A stretch of 53,710 nucleotides of DNA from an uncultured Chlorobiaceae bacterium. GTDB taxonomy: Bacteria; Bacteroidota; Chlorobiia; Chlorobiales; Chlorobiaceae. The notes beneath the pieces are model-generated. The model was not told the DNA's origin. It searched no databases and saw nothing but the letters and a program-made list of their open reading frames with translations. Every line of letters begins with the position of its first letter. The first letter of the stretch is position 1. Made by a program: the position numbers and the translations under genes. Below, one piece after another: positions 7,727 to 23,174 of the stretch. The DNA lies in the NCBI GenBank assembly GCA_903882665.1, contig CAIRXW010000006.1, positions 1-53,710 on the forward strand. Reading direction: 5' to 3'.

Positions 7727-8779
7727 TTATAAAAAGCAGTTGCCCTTAACATTTAAAGCAGCTCTAACGTGTTCCGCACTAAAAGGTTGAGCGTTCTGTC
7801 CACAAATCAAGTCTCCTCCAACTTTCTTCAGGGAACCCTCAAGTGCAGTTAACTGGTTTCCTGAACAATCGAAATTACCCTTGACCTTTTTGGGAGCGCC
7901 CTCAAGTGTTACGAGCTGATTATCTGAGCAATTAAAATAACCCTTCACTTTTTCAGGAGCCCACTTGAGTGAAATCAATTGATTATTTGAACAATCAAGC
8001 CCGTCAACTTTTTGAGGAGCACCTTTAAGGGATGTCAGTTGATTACCGGAACAATCAAATACCCCGACTTCCTGAGGAGCACCTTTGAGAGAAGTCAACT
8101 GATTTGCTGAACAATCGAAGGTGCAGCGCACTTCAAGAGAGACTCCTTTAAGCGTGGTCAACTGGTTTCCGCTGCAAGAGAAATCTCCCCTGACAACATC
8201 GGGGCTGCCTGCCAGAGACGCAAGTTGGTTGCGGGCACAATCAAAATCACCCTGCACCTTTATTGGCGCACCCTGGAGTGTCACAAGCTTATTATCTGAG
8301 CAGTTATAATCACCACCCACTATCAAAGGGGCCCCCTCAAGTGAGGTGAGCTTGTTTGCTGAACAGTTGAAATCTCCTTCTACTATCTCCAAGCCGCCCG
8401 CGAGAAGGGTATCCGTATTTGTAAGAACCTCCCCTTTGAACACGGTCAACTGATTTCCTGCACATGAAAAATCTCCCATAATGAATGTTGGACAACCCAA
8501 AAGAGAGGGCAGTTGATTGCCTGAACAATCAAAGTCCCCTTTAACCTCCTCAGGACCACCTTCGAGTGAGGTCAACTTGTTCCCTGAGCAGTTGAAATCT
8601 CCTTTAATTTTTTTTGGGCTCCCCTCAAGTGTGGTGAGCTTGTTGCCTGAGCAGTTGAAATCTCCCTTTACCCTCTCCGGACACCCTTCAAGCGAAGTTA
8701 ATCCCTTATTGGAACAATCAATGTCACTTTTTCCATCAAGCTCCCCAATGACATCGGCAAACGTTACTTTTTTACTCAT
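7727..8779 (-). CDS. Cys-ladder leucine-rich-like repeat protein (copy 1)
   Basis: A 350-residue protein built almost wholly of 15 repeats of about 21 residues, pattern CSxNxLTSLxGxPxxVxGxF. It resembles short LRR-like solenoid repeats seen in some phage and bacterial hypothetical proteins. Nearly every repeat carries a Cys at the same position, so a ladder of about 15 Cys is predicted along the solenoid. ATG 8779 is preferred over an upstream in-frame ATG because AACGGAGGTACA precedes it. There is no signal peptide, so it is probably cytoplasmic. It lies 72 bases after phoU on the same strand and may be the last gene of the ppk-pdaD-phoU unit. A 17-repeat paralogue lies at 12649-13836. Confidence 0.85.
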   Translation of the reverse strand: MSKKVTFADVIGELDGKSDIDCSNKGLTSLEGCPERVKGDFNCSGNKLTTLEGSPKKIKGDFNCSGNKLTSLEGGPEEVKGDFDCSGNQLPSLLGCPTFIMGDFSCAGNQLTVFKGEVLTNTDTLLAGGLEIVEGDFNCSANKLTSLEGAPLIVGGDYNCSDNKLVTLQGAPIKVQGDFDCARNQLASLAGSPDVVRGDFSCSGNQLTTLKGVSLEVRCTFDCSANQLTSLKGAPQEVGVFDCSGNQLTSLKGAPQKVDGLDCSNNQLISLKWAPEKVKGYFNCSDNQLVTLEGAPKKVKGNFDCSGNQLTALEGSLKKVGGDLICGQNAQPFSAEHVRAALNVKGNCFL

Positions 8780-8851
8780 TGTACCTCCGTTGAAAAACAA
8801 GTTATCGTCATTTATTAATAACAAATTATTTTCCTGTGATTTTTTACGCAT

Positions 8852-9508
8852 TTAATGTGACGATTCCTTATGGATGACTTCACCTGTCACAAGATAAATG
8901 ACCTCCTGTGCAATTTTTACAGCATGGTCGGCAATATGCTCGATATACCTGGAGATATTCAAGACCGCCATAAGCTGACTCACATCAGCATCCGGGATTT
9001 TTATCAAAGCTGTTGCCTTGTTAACGACTGCGCGGTGCATTGCCTCAATTTCTTTATCAAGATCAGAAAGCTGATCAGCAAGAACCTGCTCTTTTACAGC
9101 AAAGGCCTCAATCGACTTTTTAACCATTTCGGCAGCAAGTACACCCATCTTCTCGAACTCAAAGGATTCGATAATCCCGGGAGTGATATCAAGCATAAGA
9201 TCAAGACTATGAAGAGAAAGATCGCCAATTCGCTCCAGCTCATCATTGATCATGATAATGGCCATTATGGTGCGCAGGTCACTTGCAACCGGATGCTGAA
9301 GGGCGAGAAAAGAGAGGCATCGCTCTTCGAGATCAACTTCTGCCATATCAATTTCATAATCAGCAAGCTTGCTCTGCACTGTACCATGTTCATCATGCTG
9401 TACAACCGCATGCAGTGAAAGCAAAAAATTCTCCAACACTTTATTGGAAAGTTGAACAAGAACTTCAGAAAGTTCTGTTATTTGCGCATGAACGGGCCGT
9501 TCTGACAT
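8852..9508 (-). CDS. phoU: PhoU family phosphate regulator
   Basis: PhoU-type regulator of phosphate uptake and Pho signalling, cytoplasmic and all-helical. The 218-residue length matches the family. Two PhoU repeats are visible, the first with DLRTIMAIIMINDELERIGD and the second with LMAVLNISRYIEHIADHAVK. The metal-binding E/DxxxD-type signatures are in ELERIGD and YIEHIADHA. No pst transporter is present here, but ppk and pdaD lie upstream and a PhoB/PhoR-like pair lies 11 kb away. The 36-base gap to pdaD suggests a shared transcript. Confidence 0.92.
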   Translation of the reverse strand: MSERPVHAQITELSEVLVQLSNKVLENFLLSLHAVVQHDEHGTVQSKLADYEIDMAEVDLEERCLSFLALQHPVASDLRTIMAIIMINDELERIGDLSLHSLDLMLDITPGIIESFEFEKMGVLAAEMVKKSIEAFAVKEQVLADQLSDLDKEIEAMHRAVVNKATALIKIPDADVSQLMAVLNISRYIEHIADHAVKIAQEVIYLVTGEVIHKESSH

Positions 9509-10241: not shown

Positions 10242-12368
10242 TTATTGTACTTGCAACATTTTTTTCTGGGCTGAACGGGTTAAAAAAAGTGCCTGACTGT
10301 TCACTTTCGGGCCCTCACTGCTGATCTTCGAGTATGTTGCGTCAGCATGCATCTCCCATGCCTTGACATTATCGCTCATAATCAGATCAAGATCCGATTT
10401 GACAACACGGATTATCGCCTTGTCAAACACCGGAAAAAGGGTTTCTACCCGATCATCAAGGTTTCGTGGCATGATATCAGCACTTCCGAGATAGAGCTCC
10501 TCCTTTCCTCCGTTATGGAAGTAGTAGGCCCGGCTGTGCTCAAGAAAACGTCCAATAACACTGATGACCCTGATATGCTCACTAACCCCCTTTATACCAG
10601 GCTTGAGGCAGCAGATTCCCCGGATGATAAGGTCGATCTTTACCCCTTCGCACGAAGCCCTGTAAAGTGCCCGGATGGTTTTTCCATCCACCAGAGCATT
10701 CATTTTCATGATTATCCTTCCTTTATTCTCCTTTCGGCTCCACTCGACCTCCCGTTCAATCATCTCGATAATCCTTTTTCTGGTATTGATCGGCGAGACA
10801 AGCAGCTTTCTGTATTCGGTATGTTTTGAATATCCCGTCAAGGCGTTAAAGAGTTCTGCAACATCGTTGGCAAGTTGCTCATTGACAGTAAAGAGGCTGT
10901 AATCGGTATAAATTTTCCCGGTTGCAGGGTTGTAGTTACCTGTACCAAGATGGAGGTAGCGCTTCAGCTTATTTTGCTCACGTCGCACAATCAGGGTAAG
11001 CTTGGCATGGGTTTTCAGCCCCGGAAGACCGTAGGCGACATGTGCTCCGACATCTTCAAGTGCCCGCGCCCAGATAATGTTGTTTCCTTCGTCAAACCGC
11101 GCCTTGAGTTCTACGAGAACAGCCACCTGTTTGCCCGCTTCAGCAGCCTTCATCAAGGCCTTGACAATCGGCGAGTTACTGCCAACCCTGTAGAGTGTCT
11201 GCTTTATCGAGAGCACATCAGGATCAAGGGCTGCCTGATTGATAAAATCGACGACTGGCTGAAAAGAGTCGTAAGGATGGTAGAGTAACTGATCTTTGGC
11301 TTTTATTGCGCTGAAGATATCGGGGGTGGAGTACTCTTCGATAGGGTTTTTTTGCACAAAGGGCTCATCTTTTAAAGAGGGTAGTTCAATTTTCAAAAGT
11401 TCCATAAGAGAGGCGAGGCCAAGAGCACCATCTATTTCATAGACGTTTCTTTCGGCAACACCAAGATTTTTCATCAAAAGCTTTCTCACCGGCAGTGGCA
11501 TTGTGGACGTGATATCAAGGCGAACAACCTTTCCGTAACGGCGTGAGCGGATTCCCTTTTCAATGGTTTTCAGCAAATCTCCCGCTTCATCCTCCTCAAT
11601 TTCAACATCTGCGTCGCGGATCAATCTAAAAAGATAGGCCTTGGTTACCCTCATTTTTGGAAACAACTGCTCCAGATTGTTTTCAATAAGATCCTCAAGC
11701 CAGATAAAGCGAATAATGCCATCATCATCAAAACCCCTGATCTCATTAAGCCGAAGAAGCCGTGGAAGAATACTTGGGACTTTGACACGGGCAAACTTTA
11801 GCATACTGCTTTCATCGTCGTCAATTTCTATGGCGAGATTCAGCGAAAGGTTCGACATAAAGGGAAAGGGATGGCCCGTATCGAAGGCCAACGGGGTCAA
11901 GACGGGATAGATCTCCTTGCGGAAATAGTGGCTCAATGCATGCTGCTTCGTCACAGATAATTCTGAAAACCGAAGGAACTCAATACCCTCCTGCTGAAGT
12001 GACGGCACCAGGTCTTGATAAAAGCACTTGTTTCTCTGGCTGAGCTGCTGCAAAACCATCGTCCTGATTTTTTCGAGCTGTTCAAAAGGGGTGTGACCAT
12101 CAATCGTTCGCTCAACAATGCCCGCCTCATACTGATCCTGAATACCGGCAACCCGGATCATGAAATATTCATCGAGGTTTGCACTGAAAATCGAGATGAA
12201 TTTCACTCGTTCCAAAAGCGGGTGTGCTTCACCGTCAAGCGCCTCTTCAAGTACACGCTGATTAAAAGAGAGCCAGCTCAGCTCCCTGTTGAGATAATAA
12301 GAGGTGTCGAAAAAATCCGGAAGCGCCACTACCTTGCCATCTTCCTCATTTGTCTGCATAAGAGGCAT
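10242..12368 (-). CDS. ppk: Polyphosphate kinase 1
   Basis: Reversibly polymerises the ATP gamma-phosphate into polyphosphate. About 708 residues from the ATG at 12368; an upstream ATG at 12437 adds 23 unlikely residues. The N-terminal domain begins [19 protein letters not shown]. The two catalytic PLD-like domains carry the phospho-accepting His in [10 protein letters not shown], followed by [19 protein letters not shown], and the second His in [13 protein letters not shown]. It is the first gene of a minus-strand run with pdaD and phoU. The divergent intergenic region up to 12649 probably holds promoters for both ppk and the second repeat protein. Confidence 0.96.
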
Positions 12369-12648
12369 AAAAAAATTGACCCCGGTTTTCCCATGCGGTA
12401 AAAAAAGAATGCCATAAATTTTGGGCACAATGAACATCGAATGAACCTAATGTAGAGGCTTTGGCGTCACAAACCAATGAGCTTTTGTTACGAGTATGAA
12501 AACAAGTTCCCCCGAAGATGGGGAAAAAGGAAGCACTTCTTATCGGAGAAGTATATTGGGCAATCTTGATCCTTTGCCAGCAGAAGAACGGCCAAAACAG
12601 AGATCCGCTGACAAGGGTATCTATCAATTCATTTATGGAGAGTAAACA

Positions 12649-13836
12649 ATGAGTACAAAAGAAACGCACAGAGTATTTGCCAATATTATGGGCCCTCTTG
12701 ATGGTACAGGTGACATCGATTGTTCAAACAGGGGGCTGACCTCACTTGATGGTTGCCCGGGAATCGTGGCAGGGAATTTCAACTGTTCCGGGAATCAGTT
12801 GACATCACTGGAGGGGGGCCCTCACAGCGTTACCGGAGATTATTCCTGTTCAAATAACCAGTTAACCTCGCTTGAAGCTGCCCCGGATGAAATTCACGGC
12901 GATTTCGATTGTTCTCACAATCAATTGCTCTCACTTGATGGCGCTCCAAAAAAGGTGACTGGTAATTTCGATTGTTCCGCCAACCAGTTGACAACACTCC
13001 AGGGCACTCTGAAAAAAATTGGTGGCGACTTCTGCTGTTCAGATAACCTGCTGACCTCACTCCATGGTGCACCTCGTAAAGTTGGCGGCGATTTTGCCTG
13101 TTCGGATAACCAATTGACCTCACTTGAAGGCGCTCCCCGGGAAGTTGGTGATTTTGACTGTTCCCATAATCAGTTGACCTCACTCGAAGGGAGCCCGGAT
13201 GAAATTCACGGCGATTTCGATTGTTCCGGCAATCATCTAAGCTCACTGGCAGGATGCCCGAATTTTATTATCGGTGACTTTTTTTGCACAGGCAACCAAC
13301 TGACGTCACTGAAAGGGGGGCCGATTGTTGTTTACGGAAACTTCGACTGTTCAAACCATAAGCTGGTGTCCCTAAAGGGAGCCCCCAAAGAGGTTGAGGG
13401 CGATTTTGATTGTTCTGGAAACCAACTGACCTCACTTGCGGGAACACCTCAAGAGGTTCGTCATTTTAATTGTTCCGGCAATCAGTTGACAACACTCCAG
13501 GGCGCCCCGCATAAAGTCAGTGGAAATTTTAATTGTTCGGCAAACCGGTTGACATCGCTCAACGGTGCCTCAAAAAAGGTCAAGGGGGATTTTGATTGCT
13601 CAAATAACCAGTTAACCTCTTTCGAAGGGGCTCCAAAAAAAGTCAAGGGAAATTTCGATTGCTCAGGGAACAAACTAACCGCTCTCAATGGATCGCTCAA
13701 GAAAGTTGGTGGCAATTTTATGTGCGGAGGAAATGCCGGAATATTTGATGAAGAAGAGACTCGGACAACATGTTCGATAAAAGGAAACTATATCGATGGA
13801 ACAACACCCGTTACAGCGAAAGAACCCCAATCATAA
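12649..13836 (+). CDS. Cys-ladder leucine-rich-like repeat protein (copy 2)
   Basis: A 395-residue paralogue of the protein at 7727-8779, with 17 repeats of about 21 residues of the same CSxNxLTSLxGxPxxVxGxF pattern. It has a related N-terminus (both have FADVI/FANIM, then L-D-G and DIDCSN). The C-terminal cap is also shared (GSLKKVGG, then a Cys-Gly-Asn and IKGN/VKGN). TGGAGAG precedes the ATG by 7 bases. It lacks a signal peptide. It is divergent from ppk, so the two copies bracket the ppk-pdaD-phoU genes on opposite sides. The solenoid fold is inferred from the repeat pattern; no partner or ligand is visible. Confidence 0.85.
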   Translation: MSTKETHRVFANIMGPLDGTGDIDCSNRGLTSLDGCPGIVAGNFNCSGNQLTSLEGGPHSVTGDYSCSNNQLTSLEAAPDEIHGDFDCSHNQLLSLDGAPKKVTGNFDCSANQLTTLQGTLKKIGGDFCCSDNLLTSLHGAPRKVGGDFACSDNQLTSLEGAPREVGDFDCSHNQLTSLEGSPDEIHGDFDCSGNHLSSLAGCPNFIIGDFFCTGNQLTSLKGGPIVVYGNFDCSNHKLVSLKGAPKEVEGDFDCSGNQLTSLAGTPQEVRHFNCSGNQLTTLQGAPHKVSGNFNCSANRLTSLNGASKKVKGDFDCSNNQLTSFEGAPKKVKGNFDCSGNKLTALNGSLKKVGGNFMCGGNAGIFDEEETRTTCSIKGNYIDGTTPVTAKEPQS

Positions 13837-14413: not shown

Positions 14414-15985
14414 ATGCGCACCTCCCCGAAAACGGTATATCTCAGATTGAATCCGGCAGTCTCCACTGAGTCGCTGGCTGAAAGCGCACTTTTTTCCGGA
14501 TGGCAACTCAAAGCTTATTCGTCCCGCAAAGAACGACGGGAGTTCTACGATACATTCGAGTGGCAGGCTTTTGAGAACGAGGTTGCAATTGTAAAAAAGA
14601 GGAGAACCCTTTTTCTTGTTGATCTCAAGAGCGGCCAGGAAACAGCCACCCTCCCCTTCCCCGCAGCTCCCTCCTCTTTTTACGCCGACGCACTTCCGAC
14701 CGGCATCCTGAAAGCGGCGCTCTCAACTCTAACGGATATCAGGGCGTTCATCAGGCTCTGCGCCATTGATACCGTCATCACCACATACCGCATTCTTGAC
14801 GATAATGAGAAAAGTATCGCCTTTCTGACCTCCGAATCGCTCTGCCTTGCCGACAGGGAAAAGCAGGAACCCTTTGTGCATCTCTTTTCGCTCTCGCCGC
14901 TCAGGGGATATGATGATGAGATGGATCAGATGGTAACGTCATTGACAAACGACGACAAAATTGCGAAAACTCTTGATTTCAGGGAGCTTTTTTTGCTGAT
15001 CATGAAGGAGGCTGGCGTCAGCGTACATGGCTACTCTTCGAAAATCAACCTCGATCTTGATCCCGATGCTCCTGTTCATGAAAGTGCCCGTCAGTTGCTT
15101 CAGTTCACCTTCTCTGTCATGCGAGCCAATGAAGAGGGGATAAAAAGGAACCTCGATACGGAATTTTTGCACGACTATCGTGTCGCCATACGCCGAACCC
15201 GTTCCATCCTGAAGCAGCTCAGAAGTGTTTTTGAGCCCGAAGAAACCGCATATTATCTCAATCTTTTCAAGGAGATTGGAACGCGAACCAACGAATTGCG
15301 TGACCGGGACGTCTCTCTTCTGCGGCAGGGAAGCTATTTTCACAATTTGCCCCCTTGTCTCCAGCCATCGCTCAAGCTTTTTTTCAGTGAGATTGCTGTT
15401 TCCCGCAAAAAACTGCACAAGCAGTTCTGCCGCTATCTTGCCTCCGACGCCTGCAAATCCTTTCTTGACGAGTGGGAGGCTTTTGTACATCGGCAATCTG
15501 CCCCTGATCCAGAGCAGTGCCCGAACGCCTCACTTTCGACTGCCAGTGTTGCTGTGGAGAGCATTAAAAAAGCATGGAAAAGGGTTATCCGCCACGGCCG
15601 TCAGGTCAGCGAGGAGACAACGGACAGCGAGCTCCATGCACTGCGGATTGACTGCAAAAAACTGCGCTATCTGCTTGAATTTTTTTCCTCGATTTTTCCC
15701 CATAAATCGGTCGCTCCTGTGCTCCGCCAATTAAAAGAGCTGCAGGACAACCTCGGTGACTTTGTTGATTATTCGGTTCAACTGCACTTTCTTCATGAAC
15801 GTCTGACCACACTGCCTCTCGGAAAAGAGGCAAACTTGCTTGCCGCATCAATGGGTGGACTTATGGCAATCCTTTTTCAAAAACAGGAAGAGGCGAGGGG
15901 TACATTCCACAAAACCTTCGAGGCGTTTGACCATGAAAAAACCGCTCAACTCTTTCACGATCTTCTGACAAGCAAACTGAAATGA
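14414..15985 (+). CDS. CYTH-like/CHAD domain protein, probable polyphosphate-binding
   Basis: A 523-residue protein. Residues about 1-200 look like a degenerate CYTH-type triphosphate tunnel domain ([20 protein letters not shown], then [14 protein letters not shown]). Residues about 225-510 are a CHAD domain of helical repeats with conserved basic and His residues: [17 protein letters not shown] in the first half and [18 protein letters not shown] in the second. CHAD domains bind polyphosphate and are known to localise to polyP granules. The stop codon overlaps the start of a ParA-type ATPase (ATGA). Together with ppk 2 kb away, this points to a role in polyP storage. Confidence 0.88.
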
Positions 15986-16731
15986 AAACCATAGCACTCT
16001 ACAGCATCAAGGGCGGGGTCGGCAAAACGGCTGCTGCAGTCAACCTCTCCTACCTCTCCTCCCTGCTCTCTCAGCCAACCCTGATATGCGATCTCGATCC
16101 GCAGGGAGCCAGTTCCTACTATTTCAGGATTACCGCCTCAAAAAAATACAACAGCGACAAATTTCTGAAGGGAAACAAAAAAATCTATCACAACATCAAG
16201 GCGACCGATTTTGAGAACCTTGACCTGCTCCCTTCAGACTTTTCCTACCGCAATCTTGATATCGAACTCTCTGAAGAGAAAAAGCCTCAAAAAAAGCTTA
16301 GAAAAAACCTTGAAGAACTAAGCGAAGATTACCAGTATCTCTTTTTCGACTGCCCTCCAAACCTGACACTCCTTTCTGAAAGCGTTTTTGCGGCCTCCGA
16401 CCTGATCCTGGTTCCGTTGATACCCACGACACTCTCAATTCGCACCTACATCCAGTTAAAGGATTTTTTTGAAGCCAATAAACTCGACGGCTCAAAAATC
16501 CGCCCTTTTTTCAGTATGGTGGAGAAACAGAAAAAATTACACCGCGACATCATTCTTGAATTCGGTAATGGCCCGGAGTTCATCACCCAATCAATCCCTT
16601 ACAATTCCGAGGTTGAAAAAATGGGGCTCTACCGCGCACCGCTCAATGCCGTTCTGCCCAACGCTCCAGCCTCAAAAGCATACCGCAACCTCTGGGAGGA
16701 GCTTCGCTCGCACCTTGAAAAAAGCGGGTAA
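15982..16731 (+). CDS. ParA/MinD-family ATPase coupled to CHAD gene
   Basis: A 249-residue P-loop ATPase of the ParA family. It has a deviant Walker [11 protein letters not shown] near residues 8-17, Walker A' CDLDPQGAS (about 37-45) and Walker B LFFDCPP (about 119-125). There is no N-terminal HTH, as in small ParA (type Ib), and no ParB gene or obvious parS repeats are next to it. The ATG overlaps the CHAD stop by four bases, so the two proteins are probably made together. ParA relatives lacking ParB position cargos such as carboxysomes or storage granules; here the cargo is inferred to be polyP granules through CHAD. Confidence 0.88.
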
Positions 16732-16881: not shown

Positions 16882-18324
16882 ATGAAGGGATATCGTCAAA
16901 AAGAGTCACTCTTCAGGGTGCTTAAAATTGCACTGCTGCTGATCATCGTGGTATCAGTATCTTACCCCACACCCCGGACAACGCAGGCTGCTCAGAAGGA
17001 CATAATCAGAACACCGCACTACCTCTTTCTCTTTATTGGAGATGGCATGGGAGCTGCACAGGTGAAACTCTCCAGCGCACTGCTTGAGAGCGGCCACACC
17101 CTCGCCATGACCTCGTTACCAGTGCTCGGTATGGCAACCACCCATTCGGCAGAGCGCCTTATCACCGACTCCGGAGCCGCAGCCACGGCACTTGCTACAG
17201 GCAGCAAAACCACCATCGGCACCATTTCCATGGCTGGCAATCACCTCGATACACTGAGAACCGTTGCAGAAATGGCAAAGGCAAAAAGGATGAAAATAGG
17301 AATTGTTTCAAGTGTTGGAATCGACGACGCAACCCCCGCCTGCTTCTATGCCCACAACGCCTCCCGCGCCAACCTGTACGACATTGCCGTGCAGATGGCC
17401 TCAAGCGGTTTCGACTACTTCGGAGGAGGGTACAGCCTTGGAAACTTTCCTGAAAACCAGATAAAATCAAAAACGTTCAGGGGAGATATTACCACTCTCA
17501 TGCAGTCGGCTCACTATCTTCTTGCCCGCAACAACAAAGAACTGAACACTATAAAGCCGGGAACGCGATGCTGGGCATACAGCGATTATGACAGTAAAGG
17601 AGCACTGAGCTTTGCCATGGATCGCCGGAATGGAGGGAAGATTGAACTTGCAGAATTTACCCGCGAGGGAATCAGGTTGCTCGACAACCCAAAAGGCTTT
17701 TTCATGATGGTTGAAGGGGGAAAGATCGACTGGGCCTGCCACGCAAACGATGCCGCAGCAGTAGCGCACGATGTTGAGGCATTCGACAAAGCCATAGAGG
17801 AGGCCCTTGCCTTTTACCATCGCCACCCAAGGGAAACCCTTATTGTCGTTACCGCCGATCACGAGTGCGGCGGACTTTCACTTGGCAACGCAGCAAACGG
17901 CTACGAAACCCGTTTTGACCTTCTGCGCCATCAGAAAATTTCGCAGCAACGTTTTGCCGAAAAGGTACACACATGGAAACAACAGGGCACCATAACCTTC
18001 CCCATGGCGCTCGACAGTGTCAAGGTCTATTTCGGACTTGAAAATGTTGATGCCGGGGATCGCAACGCACTGCAGGAAGCTTACCTGACGACCATGAAAA
18101 GTGATGCTCCCGGAACAAAGGGAAATGATGCCTTCAGCCCTGCCGTAACCTCCCTGTTGAACCGCAGAGCTGCAATCGGCTGGAGCAGCAACGCCCATAC
18201 GGCAGTGCCGGTTCAGGTTTTTGCCATAGGGCGTGGAGCTGAAGCATTCAGGGGCTTTTACGACAATACCGATATCGCAAAGAAAATCATACAGATCGCT
18301 GGATTAAAACCCTCGGGAAAATAG
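16882..18324 (+). CDS. Alkaline phosphatase (PhoA superfamily), exported
   Basis: Hydrolyses phosphomonoesters in the periplasm to release phosphate. 480 residues, with an N-terminal signal or anchor helix at about 15-30. Motifs in order: FIGDGMG with metal-binding Asp54, TDSGAAATA with nucleophile Ser97, VEGGKIDWACHANDA with metal ligands, VTADHECGG, and a late His in SNAHTAVPV. CACAGG lies 9 bases before the ATG. No Pho box of the E. coli type could be confirmed in the 150-base upstream gap. The PhoB/PhoR-like pair 2.4 kb downstream is the likely regulator. Confidence 0.93.
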   Translation: MKGYRQKESLFRVLKIALLLIIVVSVSYPTPRTTQAAQKDIIRTPHYLFLFIGDGMGAAQVKLSSALLESGHTLAMTSLPVLGMATTHSAERLITDSGAAATALATGSKTTIGTISMAGNHLDTLRTVAEMAKAKRMKIGIVSSVGIDDATPACFYAHNASRANLYDIAVQMASSGFDYFGGGYSLGNFPENQIKSKTFRGDITTLMQSAHYLLARNNKELNTIKPGTRCWAYSDYDSKGALSFAMDRRNGGKIELAEFTREGIRLLDNPKGFFMMVEGGKIDWACHANDAAAVAHDVEAFDKAIEEALAFYHRHPRETLIVVTADHECGGLSLGNAANGYETRFDLLRHQKISQQRFAEKVHTWKQQGTITFPMALDSVKVYFGLENVDAGDRNALQEAYLTTMKSDAPGTKGNDAFSPAVTSLLNRRAAIGWSSNAHTAVPVQVFAIGRGAEAFRGFYDNTDIAKKIIQIAGLKPSGK

Positions 18325-18521: not shown

Positions 18522-18896
18522 ATGTCCATAACGACTATAATTCAGGTTTTTGATCCCGCATTATGCTGCAGCAGTGGGGTATGCGGGATCGATGTCGATC
18601 AGGCACTGGTCAGCTTTTCGGCTGACGCGGATTGGGCTCAACAGAATGGGGCTCAGATAGAGCGCTTCAATCTGGCCCGACAACCGCTGGCCTTCGCAGA
18701 AAACCAGACGGTAAAATCATTTCTCGACAGTTTGGGGGCGGAAGCCCTGCCGCTGATTCTTGTCGATGGCGAAGTGCTCTTGAGTGGCCGATACCCAAGC
18801 CGGGCTGAACTTGCCGGTTGGGCATCCATCACGCTGCCAGCCGCAGAGTCGAAACAAGCCAAAAGTTGCTGCTCCAATAGCAATTGCTGCGGATAA
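18522..18896 (+). CDS. arsD: ArsD arsenic metallochaperone
   Basis: Passes As(III) to the ArsA ATPase. The 124-residue chain has the conserved DPALCCSSGVCG near the N-terminus. Its Cys15, Cys16 and Cys21 have the same CC-x4-C spacing as E. coli Cys12, 13 and 18. A second CC-x4-CC cluster (CCSNSNCC) at the C-terminus is also typical of ArsD. The 197-base upstream gap has no recognisable arsR. The arsA start lies 17 bases after the arsD stop. Confidence 0.95.
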   Translation: MSITTIIQVFDPALCCSSGVCGIDVDQALVSFSADADWAQQNGAQIERFNLARQPLAFAENQTVKSFLDSLGAEALPLILVDGEVLLSGRYPSRAELAGWASITLPAAESKQAKSCCSNSNCCG

Positions 18897-18913
18897 TTCA
18901 CGAAACAACTCCA

Positions 18914-20686
18914 ATGAAATTTCTCAAAGAGCCTCCACGCTTCCTTTTTTTTACCGGAAAAGGGGGCGTCGGTAAAACCTCAATTGCCTGCGCAACGGCC
19001 ATGCAACTCGCTGAAGCAGGGCAACATGTTTTGCTGGTGAGCACCGATCCTGCCTCCAATGTCGGCCAGGTTTTCGGTATCACAATCGGCAGCAAAATCA
19101 CTCCTGTTGATGCCGTTACGGGCCTCTTTGCGCTCGAAATTGATCCGCAGGCAGCAGCACAGCACTACCGCGACCGTATCGTTGAACCGGTACGCGGCCT
19201 CCTGCCAGAGAGCATCGTGAAAAGCATTGAGGAACAACTTTCCGGCGCCTGCACAACGGAAATTGCCGCATTCGACGAGTTCACTGCCCTTTTGAGCGAC
19301 TCAGCCCTGACCGCCGACTTCGACCACATCATATTCGACACTGCGCCAACCGGACACACCATCCGGCTGCTGCAACTGCCCGGCGCATGGAGCGGTTTTC
19401 TTGAAGAGGGCAAGGGCGACGTATCCTGCCTCGGCCCATTAGCCGGTCTTGGAAAGCAACGCACTCAATACAAGGAGGCTGTCGAAGCCTTGGCCGACCC
19501 CTTGCGTACGCGCCTGATTCTGGTCTCCCGGGCCCAGCAATCCTCTTTGCGCGAAGTCGCCCGAACCTGTGAAGAGCTCGCCGCAATTGGCATCTCACAA
19601 CACTATCTCATCATCAACGGCATATTCCCTCAAAGCGAAGCGGCAGAGGATGCACTCGCTGCCGCACTCTTTTTGCGTGAGCAGGCAGCATTATCGGCCA
19701 TGCCGGAGAGCCTCAGGGCATTGCCGTCCGATCATGTCACACTCAAGCCATTCAATATGGTCGGCCTTGAAGCGCTGCGCCAGTTATTCTCCGACAAAGA
19801 GCAGCACTCTTTTTCCAGTAAAGAGGCCATCACACTCAACGCTCCCGGCCTCCTGACACTGGTTGACGACATCGCACTCAAAGGCAAGGGCCTTGTCATG
19901 TTCATGGGTAAAGGAGGTGTTGGCAAAACAACCCTCGCGGCAGCAACAGCTCTTGAGCTTGCCCGTCGTGGCCTGCCGGTGCACCTTACCACCTCCGATC
20001 CTGCGGCTCATCTCACGGAAACATTGAACGGGAACATCGACAATCTTACCGTCAGCCGGATCGACCCCCGCGCCGAAACCGAACGCTACCAACAACAAGT
20101 TCTGGCTACCAAAGGAAAGGAACTCGACCTGGAAGGTATCGTCCTGCTTGAAGAGGATTTGCGCTCGCCCTGCACCGAAGAGATTGCCGTCTTCCAGGCT
20201 TTTTCACGCATTATCAGTGAGGCTGACCGAAAAATTATTGTCATGGATACGGCCCCCACCGGTCATACCCTGCTGCTGCTTGATGCAACCGGTGCCTATC
20301 ACCGTGAATTCACCCGTCAAAGTGGAAAAACAGAGCAGCACTCTCTTACGCCAATGACGCGGATGCAAGACACGAAACAGACCAGCATCGTGCTCGTGAC
20401 ACTGGCTGAAACTACCCCGGTGCTGGAAACCGCCAATCTGCAAGAGGAGTTGCGACGTGCCGGCATTGAGCCATGGGGCTGGATCATCAATAACAGCATA
20501 GCCGCCGCCGGATCACACTCCCCTCTTCTCAACCGACGAGCGCAGAACGAATTAAAAGAGATTGACGCCGTGGCCCGCCTTTATGCCACACGCTACGCCG
20601 TAGTACCGTTGTTGAATGAAGAGCCAACAGGAGCGAATCAGCTTCTGAAGCTCATCCATGGCCAGGTAACAGAGCACACAATATAA
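18914..20686 (+). CDS. arsA: ArsA arsenite-stimulated ATPase, two-domain
   Basis: A 590-residue tandem ATPase. P-loops GKGGVGKT occur at residues about 15-22 and 332-339, and DTAPTGHT signal motifs in each half. With the ATG at 18914, the metal-binding Cys fall at positions 113 (SGACTTEIA) and 172 (DVSCLGP), the E. coli ArsA numbers. The third, in RSPCTEEIA, is near 420. This supports the chosen start over the one ten codons upstream. ArsA normally energises ArsB, but no ArsB, Acr3 or ArsR gene is in the window. In green sulfur bacteria the efflux partner may lie elsewhere. Confidence 0.95.
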   Translation: MKFLKEPPRFLFFTGKGGVGKTSIACATAMQLAEAGQHVLLVSTDPASNVGQVFGITIGSKITPVDAVTGLFALEIDPQAAAQHYRDRIVEPVRGLLPESIVKSIEEQLSGACTTEIAAFDEFTALLSDSALTADFDHIIFDTAPTGHTIRLLQLPGAWSGFLEEGKGDVSCLGPLAGLGKQRTQYKEAVEALADPLRTRLILVSRAQQSSLREVARTCEELAAIGISQHYLIINGIFPQSEAAEDALAAALFLREQAALSAMPESLRALPSDHVTLKPFNMVGLEALRQLFSDKEQHSFSSKEAITLNAPGLLTLVDDIALKGKGLVMFMGKGGVGKTTLAAATALELARRGLPVHLTTSDPAAHLTETLNGNIDNLTVSRIDPRAETERYQQQVLATKGKELDLEGIVLLEEDLRSPCTEEIAVFQAFSRIISEADRKIIVMDTAPTGHTLLLLDATGAYHREFTRQSGKTEQHSLTPMTRMQDTKQTSIVLVTLAETTPVLETANLQEELRRAGIEPWGWIINNSIAAAGSHSPLLNRRAQNELKEIDAVARLYATRYAVVPLLNEEPTGANQLLKLIHGQVTEHTI

Positions 20687-20698
20687 AAAGTGAATCCC

Positions 20699-21409
20699 AT
20701 GTCAAATCCATTGCTGCTTGTTGTCGAAGATGACCAGAACCTTGCAAAGCTGCTTGAATATAATCTCAATCGGGCAGGCTATAGATCTCATCTTTCCGGC
20801 ACCGGCGAAGATGGGCTTGAGCAGCTCTCACAAAAAAGCTTTGACCTTGTGCTGCTTGATGTTATGCTGCCGGGAATGGACGGTTTTGAGCTTTGCCGAA
20901 AAATCAGGCAGCATCAGCGTTACAAGGATATCCCCATCATCATGGTAACTGCCAAAGGAGAGGAGATCGACCGGATTCTCGGCTTTGAACTCGGCATTGA
21001 TGACTATGTGGTTAAACCCTTCAGCCCCCGTGAGCTGACACTGCGCATACGGGCAATCCTCAAGCGGGATCACCGGCAGAGCGGTAAAACTGAGGAACTG
21101 CTCAAGGCAGGAGCCCTTGAAGTCGATCTGACACGACACCTTGTGACGCTTGAAGGCAAAGAGCTTGTGGTGACGCTGATGGAGTTCAAGCTTCTCGTCG
21201 CCCTCCTCAAAAGGAAGGGAGAGGCACAATCGCGCGAGAGGCTGCTCAGTGATGTCTGGGATATCGATAAAAGCATCAACACCAGAACCATCGACACACA
21301 CATCACCAGAATCCGCGAAAAACTTGGTGAAACTGGCCGCATGATTACAACTGTGCGGGGACTTGGTTACAAGTTTGAGGAAAAAGAGGGTGATGACCAT
21401 GCAGGTTAA
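20699..21409 (+). CDS. phoB: PhoB-like response regulator (OmpR family)
   Basis: A 236-residue receiver plus winged-helix regulator. The receiver has the acidic pair in VVEDDQN, phospho-acceptor Asp in LVLLDVMLPGMDG and Lys in VVKPFSPREL. The Trans_reg_C domain ends TIDTHITRIREKL, then TVRGLGYKFE. ATG 20699 is preferred to the GTG at 20690. It begins 13 bases after arsA and overlaps its kinase. Placement with an alkaline phosphatase, phoU and ppk supports a phosphate role, but OmpR-type regulators cannot be told apart with certainty by sequence alone. Confidence 0.88.
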   Translation: MSNPLLLVVEDDQNLAKLLEYNLNRAGYRSHLSGTGEDGLEQLSQKSFDLVLLDVMLPGMDGFELCRKIRQHQRYKDIPIIMVTAKGEEIDRILGFELGIDDYVVKPFSPRELTLRIRAILKRDHRQSGKTEELLKAGALEVDLTRHLVTLEGKELVVTLMEFKLLVALLKRKGEAQSRERLLSDVWDIDKSINTRTIDTHITRIREKLGETGRMITTVRGLGYKFEEKEGDDHAG

Positions 21410-23174
21410 GCTCTCCTTCAAGTTCGGCCTTGTTATAGGGATGATTATTTTTTTGTCGGTAGTCATCAGCTACTTCTCAATTGAGCATCGGTTAACAGAG
21501 ATACTGGTCACTGCAACAAAAAAGGAGCTACACCGTGATCTTCTGCAAAGCAAACAGATGTTTGAAGAGGAAGCGCGGGAATGGCCGACAAATAAGCAAA
21601 GCAACGCATGGGTAGAGCGTATCGGACGCACACTTGATATCAGGGTCACCCTGATTGACCTTCAGGGAGAGGTCATCTCCGACTCCTCTGTCCCCCCCGG
21701 CAAGCTCTACGGAATGGAGAACCACTGGAACAGGCCGGAAGTACAGGAGGCCATTGCAAAAGGGTACGGTGAAAGAACCCGATACAGTCAAACCGTCAAA
21801 GAGCACATGCTCTATATGGCCATCCCTGTCGGTTTGCCGAAACCCTGCGCCATCCTTCGATTCGGAAAACCGCTCTACGATATCGGAGTGTTCGACAGCG
21901 TAATTCAGAGAGAGATCACCCAAGGTATCTTTCTGGCCTTATTTTTCTCACTGATCGCAGGTTTTCTGGCAGCGTTTTTTCTGACCCGTCCGCTCAGGAT
22001 TCTTGCCAAAACCGCTCAAAAAAGGATTCACGGCGATTTTTCAGCCACCACTCCTGTATCAAAAAAGGATGAAACAGGAGTGCTTGCCCGCGCATTGCAG
22101 GTCATGACGGATGAAATCATAACACTGCGACGCAGTGAAGAGTGGCTCCGTGCTGTTTTTTCAGGAATTCGTGAGGCCATCATTGTTACCGATTCGACTG
22201 GCGACATCATTCTGGTCAACCCGGCGGCATCAAGAATGTTCCGCATTGATGGCACCATGTTCAAGTCTCGCCCGCTCCGCCATCTTTCCGACAGCAACCT
22301 TCAGGAGCTTTTTGCAAGGGTTCACAGCGCACGCCTGGCCCTGCTCAAGGAGGAGATGACACTCATGACTACAAGGGGAGGGCGCATCATGCAGATCAGC
22401 TCCATGCCGCTTACAAAAGAGGAGCAGTTCGAAGGAACCGTTTTTGTTTTGAACGACATCACCAAACTGCGCAACCTTGAAGCAATACGCAGGGATTTTG
22501 TCTCCAGTGTTTCCCACGAACTTCGCACCCCACTCACCGTCATCACCGGCTACGCCGAGACGCTGCTCGACGGGGCCATGCTTGAGCCCGAACATGCCAC
22601 ACCCTTCCTGCAAATTATTTTGCAGGCAAGCCAGCAACTCACCGCTCTCGTCAACGATGTGCTCGACCTGTCCAAAATTGAATCGGGCTATATTGAGTAC
22701 CAGTTCAGTGCGGTTGACCTCAAAAGCATCGTGCAGAAATCGGTTAATCTTCTGCAACATGAAGTTGAAAAAAAGCAGATCAGGCTTGAAGTCCATATCC
22801 CCGAAGAGCTTCCGCCGGTTTATGCTGATCCCCGCTATCTCGACATTATTATCCGCAATCTCCTCGACAACGCCATCAAATATGTTGACGACCGCAACGG
22901 AAAGATCAGAATTTCAGCATTCAGAAGTGATGATGCTATCCGGCTGGAAGTGGAAGACAACGGTATCGGCATATCGAAATCCGATCTCGAACGTATCTTT
23001 GAGCGATTCTACCGGGTCGACAAGGCCCGTTCACGCGAGCGCGGAGGAACGGGCCTCGGGCTTGCCATTGTCAAGCACATTATCCTGGCCCACAAAGGCA
23101 ACGTCGAGGTACGTTCACGCATCAACCATGGCTCGGTCTTCAGTGTGGTTTTGAGGATAGCGACGGGGAAATAA
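21399..23174 (+). CDS. phoR: PhoR-like membrane sensor histidine kinase
   Basis: About 591 residues. An N-terminal membrane helix (FGLVIGMIIFLSVVISYFS), a periplasmic domain of about 130 residues, a second helix near residue 180 and a HAMP segment come first. Next are a PAS domain at about 250-350 (IREAIIVTDSTGDIILVNPA) and HisKA with phospho-His in SHELRTPLTVITGYAETL. HATPase_c ends the chain, with NLLDNAIKY, DNGIGI and GTGLGLAIVKH. GAGG lies 9 bases before the ATG at 21399; an ATG two codons earlier is possible. It overlaps the regulator gene by 11 bases, so expression is coupled. Confidence 0.9.
   Translation: MQVKLSFKFGLVIGMIIFLSVVISYFSIEHRLTEILVTATKKELHRDLLQSKQMFEEEAREWPTNKQSNAWVERIGRTLDIRVTLIDLQGEVISDSSVPPGKLYGMENHWNRPEVQEAIAKGYGERTRYSQTVKEHMLYMAIPVGLPKPCAILRFGKPLYDIGVFDSVIQREITQGIFLALFFSLIAGFLAAFFLTRPLRILAKTAQKRIHGDFSATTPVSKKDETGVLARALQVMTDEIITLRRSEEWLRAVFSGIREAIIVTDSTGDIILVNPAASRMFRIDGTMFKSRPLRHLSDSNLQELFARVHSARLALLKEEMTLMTTRGGRIMQISSMPLTKEEQFEGTVFVLNDITKLRNLEAIRRDFVSSVSHELRTPLTVITGYAETLLDGAMLEPEHATPFLQIILQASQQLTALVNDVLDLSKIESGYIEYQFSAVDLKSIVQKSVNLLQHEVEKKQIRLEVHIPEELPPVYADPRYLDIIIRNLLDNAIKYVDDRNGKIRISAFRSDDAIRLEVEDNGIGISKSDLERIFERFYRVDKARSRERGGTGLGLAIVKHIILAHKGNVEVRSRINHGSVFSVVLRIATGK

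Follow-up and report, generated by a model that had tools for sequence, protein, structure and literature searches.

A conserved CHAD-ParA gene pair points to a possible, hitherto undescribed system for positioning polyphosphate granules or distributing them between daughter cells

How cells place their polyphosphate (polyP) granules and share them between daughters is an open question. In a 2025 review, the positioning of polyP granules is represented by AlgP alone, and its ATP dependence is marked as unknown (PMC13052382). A survey of the cargos of ParA/MinD ATPases mentions neither polyP nor CHAD domains (PMC10241942). The question is raised anew by a locus in a 53,710-nucleotide stretch of DNA from an uncultured Chlorobiaceae bacterium (contig CAIRXW010000006.1; the whole stretch is called the window here), in which the gene for a CHAD-domain protein runs into the gene for a ParA-type ATPase (Table 1). 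The pair is a concrete two-gene candidate for granule placement and sharing. Could the two proteins position polyP granules together, as an earlier note on this DNA proposed?

Table 1. Positions of the CHAD-ParA pair, its domains, and nearby genes in the window.
Feature	Position	Strand	Remarks
CHAD protein, 523 aa	14414..15985	+	N-terminal predicted pseudo-TTM (CYTH-like) domain and C-terminal long CHAD domain
Predicted triphosphate-tunnel (CYTH/TTM) fold, residues ~4-201	14423..15016	+	Without ExExK; invariant R110 and K133
CHAD domain, residues 207-521	15032..15976	+	polyP-binding by homology
ParA/Soj-like ATPase, 249 aa	15982..16731	+	Deviant Walker A motif KGGVGKT
CHAD/ParA stop/start overlap ATGA	15982..15985	+	Read from the sequence
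PPK1, polyphosphate kinase	10242..12437	-	TIGR03705, E 5.7e-260; context, outside the conserved pair in Chlorobiaceae
PhoU	8852..9508	-	TIGR02135, E 1.1e-44; context
LRR-like repeat protein	12649..13836	+	Elsewhere in Chlorobiaceae within a PhoU-LRR-CHAD-PPK1 cluster
Alkaline phosphatase	16882-18324
PhoB/PhoR-like pair	20690-23174

The local arrangement that the earlier note described was borne out. On the plus strand, the stop codon of the CHAD gene (TGA, 15983-15985) overlaps the start codon of the ParA gene (ATG, 15982-15984), and the same 4-base overlap is found in 35/57 Chlorobi loci and 14/41 other loci. The polyphosphate kinase gene, which lies 2.0 kb from the start of the CHAD gene, was located in the window along with phoU, a phosphatase gene, and PhoB/R-like genes. 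As had also been claimed, no ParB gene adjoins the CHAD-linked ParA gene, and the window contains no parS-like sites with up to three mismatches allowed; a separate chromosomal Soj with a neighboring ParB is encoded elsewhere in the genome. The CHAD protein matched the Pfam CHAD family (PF05235, E = 2.8e-55, residues 228-461), and the ATPase, with its KGGVGKT motif, matched AAA_31 (E = 4e-32). No NCBIfam model scored above its cut-off for either protein, so assignment to a named family was dropped. Among the surrounding genes, those for PPK1 and PhoU are flanked by two paralogous LRR-like proteins (12649-13836 and 7727-8851), both built from a repeat of about 20 residues (GDFDCSxNQLTSLEGAP), and arsD-arsA-like genes (arsenical pump-driving ATPase; 18522-20686) lie between the alkaline phosphatase gene and the PhoB/R-like pair.

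To characterize the conservation of the pair, we searched 86 Chlorobiaceae genomes, defining presence by a ParA profile match (E < 1e-60) and a CHAD family match. Both genes were present in 79 genomes and neither in 7, and no genome had a single gene. Some of the seven genomes lacking both are incomplete assemblies, and their joint absence is weaker evidence than it may seem because one missing contig would remove both neighbors. Of the 79 genomes with the pair, 72 have the two genes side by side (in one of these over a break between contigs), and the other seven retain both genes at unlinked positions. Because the genes flanking CHAD and ParA vary between species, the conserved unit is the pair itself and not its surroundings. 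The same variation undercuts the use of the local ppk neighbor as support: many Chlorobiaceae species carry the pair with no ppk nearby, and we dropped ppk adjacency as a key local feature within this family, while noting that linkage to ppk recurs in other groups.

Where the neighborhoods of unlinked genes were read (G005, G016, and G033), ParA is a solo gene, whereas CHAD belongs to a PhoU-LRR-CHAD-PPK1 cluster. CHAD copies linked to PPK1 branch from within the ParA-linked copies in the CHAD tree, and the CHAD-ParA arrangement therefore looks like the older one; in the ParA tree, the solo ParAs likewise nest within the CHAD-linked ParAs. In its deep branches, the ParA tree does not clearly set the CHAD-linked ParAs apart from three CHAD-less relatives. 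Chlorobi that appear to be Chloroherpeton-like encode a short CHAD protein of 322 residues that has no N-terminal domain and no such ParA nearby. In one Chlorobium clade (L070, L072, and L074), a solo ParA about 80% identical to that of the window lies between genes for an SDR-type oxidoreductase and a BMP-type lipoprotein.

Adjacency in relatives had been set beforehand as a test of the proposal, and it holds far beyond Chlorobi. When about 85,000 species genomes were scanned with the ParA alignment, 80 loci matched, 15 of them outside the Chlorobiaceae. The ParAs of these 15 loci, which are 52-59% identical, come from KSB1, Dadabacteria, Deferribacteres, Gemmatimonadetes, Desulfobacterales and relatives, Opitutae, and one Methanophagales archaeon. 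A CHAD gene lies directly upstream on the same strand in all 15, with two exceptions in form: the CHAD gene of L194 is disrupted and spread over several frames, and the two genes of L193 are about 500 bases apart. Samples of a Desulfobacterota class, Verrucomicrobiota, and an archaeal phylum contained 29 ParA loci, of which 26 had CHAD upstream; the three that lacked it were the three lowest-scoring. The pair was also found on two large Paracoccus plasmids (L253 and L254) in the order CHAD-ParA-CYTH-NUDIX, where the homologs are annotated merely as a CHAD domain-containing protein and an AAA family ATPase. Carriage on these plasmids makes the module mobile and places it in hosts that can be cultured. 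Altogether, CHAD was directly upstream of ParA on the same strand in 39/39 non-Chlorobi loci, a count from which four duplicates were removed and in which membership was set by a ParA score of at least 294 bits rather than by tree clade. The hosts belong to at least eight groups (KSB1, Dadabacteria, Deferribacteres, Gemmatimonadetes, Desulfobacterota, Verrucomicrobiota, Methanophagales archaea, and Paracoccus), and many of their genomes are metagenome-assembled. Given adjacency in 72/79 Chlorobiaceae genomes with differing flanks and in all 39 loci elsewhere, the neighborhood of CHAD and ParA is not due to chance.

The two genes are also inherited together. Random genomes of the Desulfobacterota class and of Verrucomicrobiota were searched with a full-length CHAD alignment, and the genomes with a full-length CHAD were the same as those with the ParA, namely 14/147 in the first sample and 10/195 in the second. 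The corresponding probabilities of chance overlap are 7.5e-20 and 5.8e-17 (hypergeometric, with shared ancestry ignored). One Verrucomicrobiota genome (G442) has part of its CHAD gene at either end of the same contig. CHAD matches of other kinds occurred in 4 genomes of the first sample and 25 of the second, and every one of these genomes lacked a CHAD-linked ParA. CHAD is single-copy in the 15 non-Chlorobi genomes in which copy number was checked. One genome of the Desulfobacterota class without the ParA (G201, locus L248) retains a broken pseudo-TTM-CHAD remnant behind PPK1, which looks like a joint loss of CHAD and ParA.

Outside Chlorobi, the pair recurs among genes of polyP metabolism. 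PPK1 is directly upstream of it in two KSB1 loci, one Deferribacteres locus, and one archaeal locus (L189, L193, L197, and the archaeal L201), and 1 kb upstream in a Desulfosarcina locus; further neighbors encode Ppx/GppA, CYTH, NUDIX, histidine phosphatase, and PPK2 proteins. Of the 28 host genomes with PPK1, 13 have it no more than 10 kb from the pair, against about 0.2 expected by simple arithmetic from genome sizes. A PPK1 match was absent in 9 of 37 host genomes, some of which have PPK2. The link to polyP that the earlier note had drawn is thus upheld by these recurrent PPK1, PPK2, and Ppx neighbors, together with an orthologous protein shown to bind polyP (PMC6537752).

That ortholog is CtCHAD from Chlorobium tepidum (3e0s, 6qv7, and 6qva), which shares its numbering and polyP-binding residues with the window CHAD protein (phmmer, E = 1e-104). 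The AlphaFold2 model of the window protein (mean pLDDT, 90.4) has two parts. Residues 207-521 superimpose on CtCHAD 6qv7 (Z = 38.9, rmsd 1.5, 315 aligned) and are 52% identical to it. Five residues (H253, R256, R296, R418, and Y419 in CtCHAD numbering) are invariant across groups. In the CtCHAD study, mutating them in CtCHAD/SsCHAD weakened polyP binding, CtCHAD bound polyP in vitro, CHAD domains bound polyP and not nucleic acids in vitro, and Ralstonia CHAD proteins are said to localize to polyP granules in vivo (PMC6537752). With a CHAD domain and the conserved basic residues for polyP binding, the window protein belongs with the CHAD polyP-binding proteins (phosins).

The N-terminal part, about 200 residues, is predicted to have a triphosphate-tunnel (CYTH) fold that lacks the catalytic motif. 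In VIA-align comparisons, the model of residues 4-201 matched 6yp4 (Z = 13.7, rmsd 3.5, 180 aligned), 7nsf (Z = 13.4, rmsd 3.5, 162 aligned), and 5a68 (Z = 13.4, rmsd 3.6, 178 aligned), and a Foldseek search with the CHAD model matched full-length ygiF (E = 3.3e-8). Pfam CYTH had no match in this region, and ExExK was absent from the first strand in 41/41 aligned CHAD proteins, on which ground we rejected an active triphosphatase. R110 and K133 are invariant in the pseudo-TTM domain and could still hold a ligand inside the tunnel. Among the CHAD proteins sampled, the domain is confined to those associated with ParA. Known partners contact ParA/MinD ATPases through a basic, flexible N-terminal tail (PMC12204374, PMC10241942). 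Such a tail is not conserved in the 41 CHAD proteins, whose first 20 aligned columns have a mean net charge of -0.8 and no shared K/R.

The modeled ATPase (mean pLDDT, 87.6) most resembles partition proteins. It matched ParA 8ray (Z = 28.8, rmsd 2.5, 244 aligned) and Soj 2bej (Z = 28.4, rmsd 2.5, 237 aligned) and, with lower Z, McdA chains (Z = 25.0, rmsd 2.8, 243 aligned) and BcsQ 6yb5 (Z = 24.8, rmsd 2.8, 227 aligned). KGGVGKT is invariant in 37 aligned ParA rows. On the strength of the model, we class the protein as a ParA/MinD (deviant Walker A) ATPase with a Soj-like fold and intact ATPase motifs. As a reference for the alignment, we used two positions that we take to be the DNA-binding arginines of Soj. 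The first is K or R in 86% of the ParA family and Q in the window; the second is lost in the family. K184 and K213 are invariant and R218 is nearly so, and judging from the alignment these residues may substitute for the Soj arginines.

The pairing of a polyP-binding protein with a ParA-type ATPase suggests an undescribed system that places or shares out polyP granules. We consider it probable that CHAD and ParA form a two-gene cargo-positioning module for these granules, in the manner of McdAB, which positions carboxysomes, with CHAD as the adaptor and ParA on the nucleoid. As part of that reading, the CHAD domain would bind polyP and so coat granules, and the catalytically dead triphosphate-tunnel domain would make the contact with ParA. 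By analogy with other ParA/MinD systems, ParA would dimerize with ATP and bind the nucleoid, CHAD-coated granules would release it, and the granules, following gradients of ParA, would spread out so that both daughters inherit them. Cells of Chlorobium thiosulfatophilum are reported to form as many as three polyP granules each (PMC11269200). Counting against the positioning reading are the lack of a conserved basic tail in CHAD, which does not suit a textbook ParA partner, the only partial retention of the Soj arginines, the host genomes with no PPK1 match, and the much higher conservation of ParA than of CHAD. A broader proposition also seems somewhat likelier to hold than to fail: that bacteria and archaea share an undescribed ATP-driven system for positioning organelles in which a pseudo-enzyme-CHAD protein is the tether between granules and a dedicated ParA, phosphate stores are spaced along the nucleoid and passed on when the cell divides, and the two genes spread between phyla as a module, also on plasmids. 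What stands of the original positioning claim is the conserved pair and its link to polyP; the neighboring ppk, which is not conserved in Chlorobiaceae, does not.

An unlikely alternative is that the ATPase belongs to a polyP-metabolizing complex as a subunit for regulation or assembly, a counterpart of BcsQ in cellulose synthesis, and governs the recruitment of PPK or the nucleation or mobilization of granules instead of their position on the nucleoid. In several groups, PPK1, PPK2, Ppx, CYTH, and NUDIX genes surround the pair, which would fit such a role, as would the presence of BcsQ chains among the structural matches, but Soj and ParA chains match better (Z of 28 versus 25). Moreover, the conserved partner is a polyP-binding CHAD protein and no enzyme, and most Chlorobiaceae have no adjacent PPK. 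Because the usual basic tail is missing and the Soj arginines are only partly kept, a BcsQ-like role retains an appreciable minority share of the probability.

It is very unlikely that the ParA serves chromosome or plasmid partition, with CHAD acting like ParB and coupling polyP granules to chromosome segregation. Granule inheritance in Caulobacter does depend on chromosome segregation (PMC13052382), and in Paracoccus the pair is plasmid-borne. However, a separate Soj-ParB pair is encoded in the genome, no ParB adjoins the ParA and no parS-like site occurs in the window, the CHAD-ParA pair lies within polyP metabolic clusters in several groups, and CHAD domains bind polyP but not nucleic acids in vitro (PMC6537752); we therefore set partition aside. 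We find it barely credible that the genes are merely co-transcribed and co-inherited while their products do not work together. Each protein could plausibly have an independent role, and the genes are unlinked in one Chlorobium clade, but all seven unlinked genomes kept both, the sets of genomes with and without each gene are identical in three taxonomic samples, and order and strand never varied in the non-Chlorobi loci.

Most likely, then, the pair is a form of ParA cargo positioning in which both the partner and the cargo are new. McdAB is similar in having a ParA-type ATPase beside a cargo-binding adaptor (here CHAD, adjacent at the frequencies given above), a cargo other than DNA, and no ParB or parS. 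It differs in that the CHAD-ParA adaptor is a pseudo-TTM-CHAD polyP-binding protein and not McdB, the cargo would be polyP granules, and the CHAD-ParA loci read contain no carboxysome genes. Membership in McdAB was rejected because CHAD does not resemble McdB and has no basic tail at its N terminus. The closest structural relatives of the ParA are in ParABS/Soj-Spo0J, which, unlike the CHAD-linked locus, includes ParB and parS. AlgP of Pseudomonas aeruginosa also organizes polyP granules along the cell (PMC9239181, PMC13052382); unlike CHAD-ParA, it is histone H1-like, binds DNA itself, and has no known ATPase. The Escherichia coli TTM-CHAD triphosphatase YgiF (5a60) has the same domain order as the window protein, TTM then CHAD, but it is a catalytic short-chain polyphosphatase (PMC6537752), whereas the ParA-linked CHAD proteins lack ExExK.

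We found no description of a CHAD-ParA link in the literature searched, the coverage of which leaves out bioRxiv and most subscription journals. If the positioning module is real, its ATPase would be the first tied to polyP granule organization as far as that literature shows, and polyP granules would join the candidate cargos of the ParA/MinD family. A role in engaging ParA might also account for the N-terminal half of the crystallized CtCHAD protein: the CtCHAD study covered only residues 207-522, and its text discusses neither the N-terminal domain nor a ParA gene. Candidate hosts such as Chlorobaculum and Paracoccus are culturable.

The two proteins differ in conservation, with a mean column identity of 80% for ParA versus 53% for CHAD. 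Because ParA is so much more conserved, it could have further partners. ParA relatives scoring below 285 bits had no adjacent CHAD wherever the flank was readable, and are possibly related ParAs with other cargos. In a plasmid search, such relatives came from Pontibacter (273 bits) and Marinobacter (242 bits), neither with an annotated CHAD next to it; the Pontibacter flank was read through the start of the record. A Halomonas relative matched at the start of an unannotated record, so that its upstream side falls outside the adjacency reading. Five loci scoring 242-284 bits against the CHAD-linked profile (L218, L219, L230, L255, and L256) have no adjacent CHAD and varied neighbors, among them genes for a PAS coiled-coil protein and an HlyD-type exporter. 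On the Marinobacter plasmid, the neighbors include phbB, and a short CHAD gene lies a few kilobases from the ParA relative. Finally, some Chlorobium genomes (G030, G008, and G020) have two CHAD paralogs, one with ParA and the other with PPK1 (L086, L087, and L095 compared with L085, L088, and L096).
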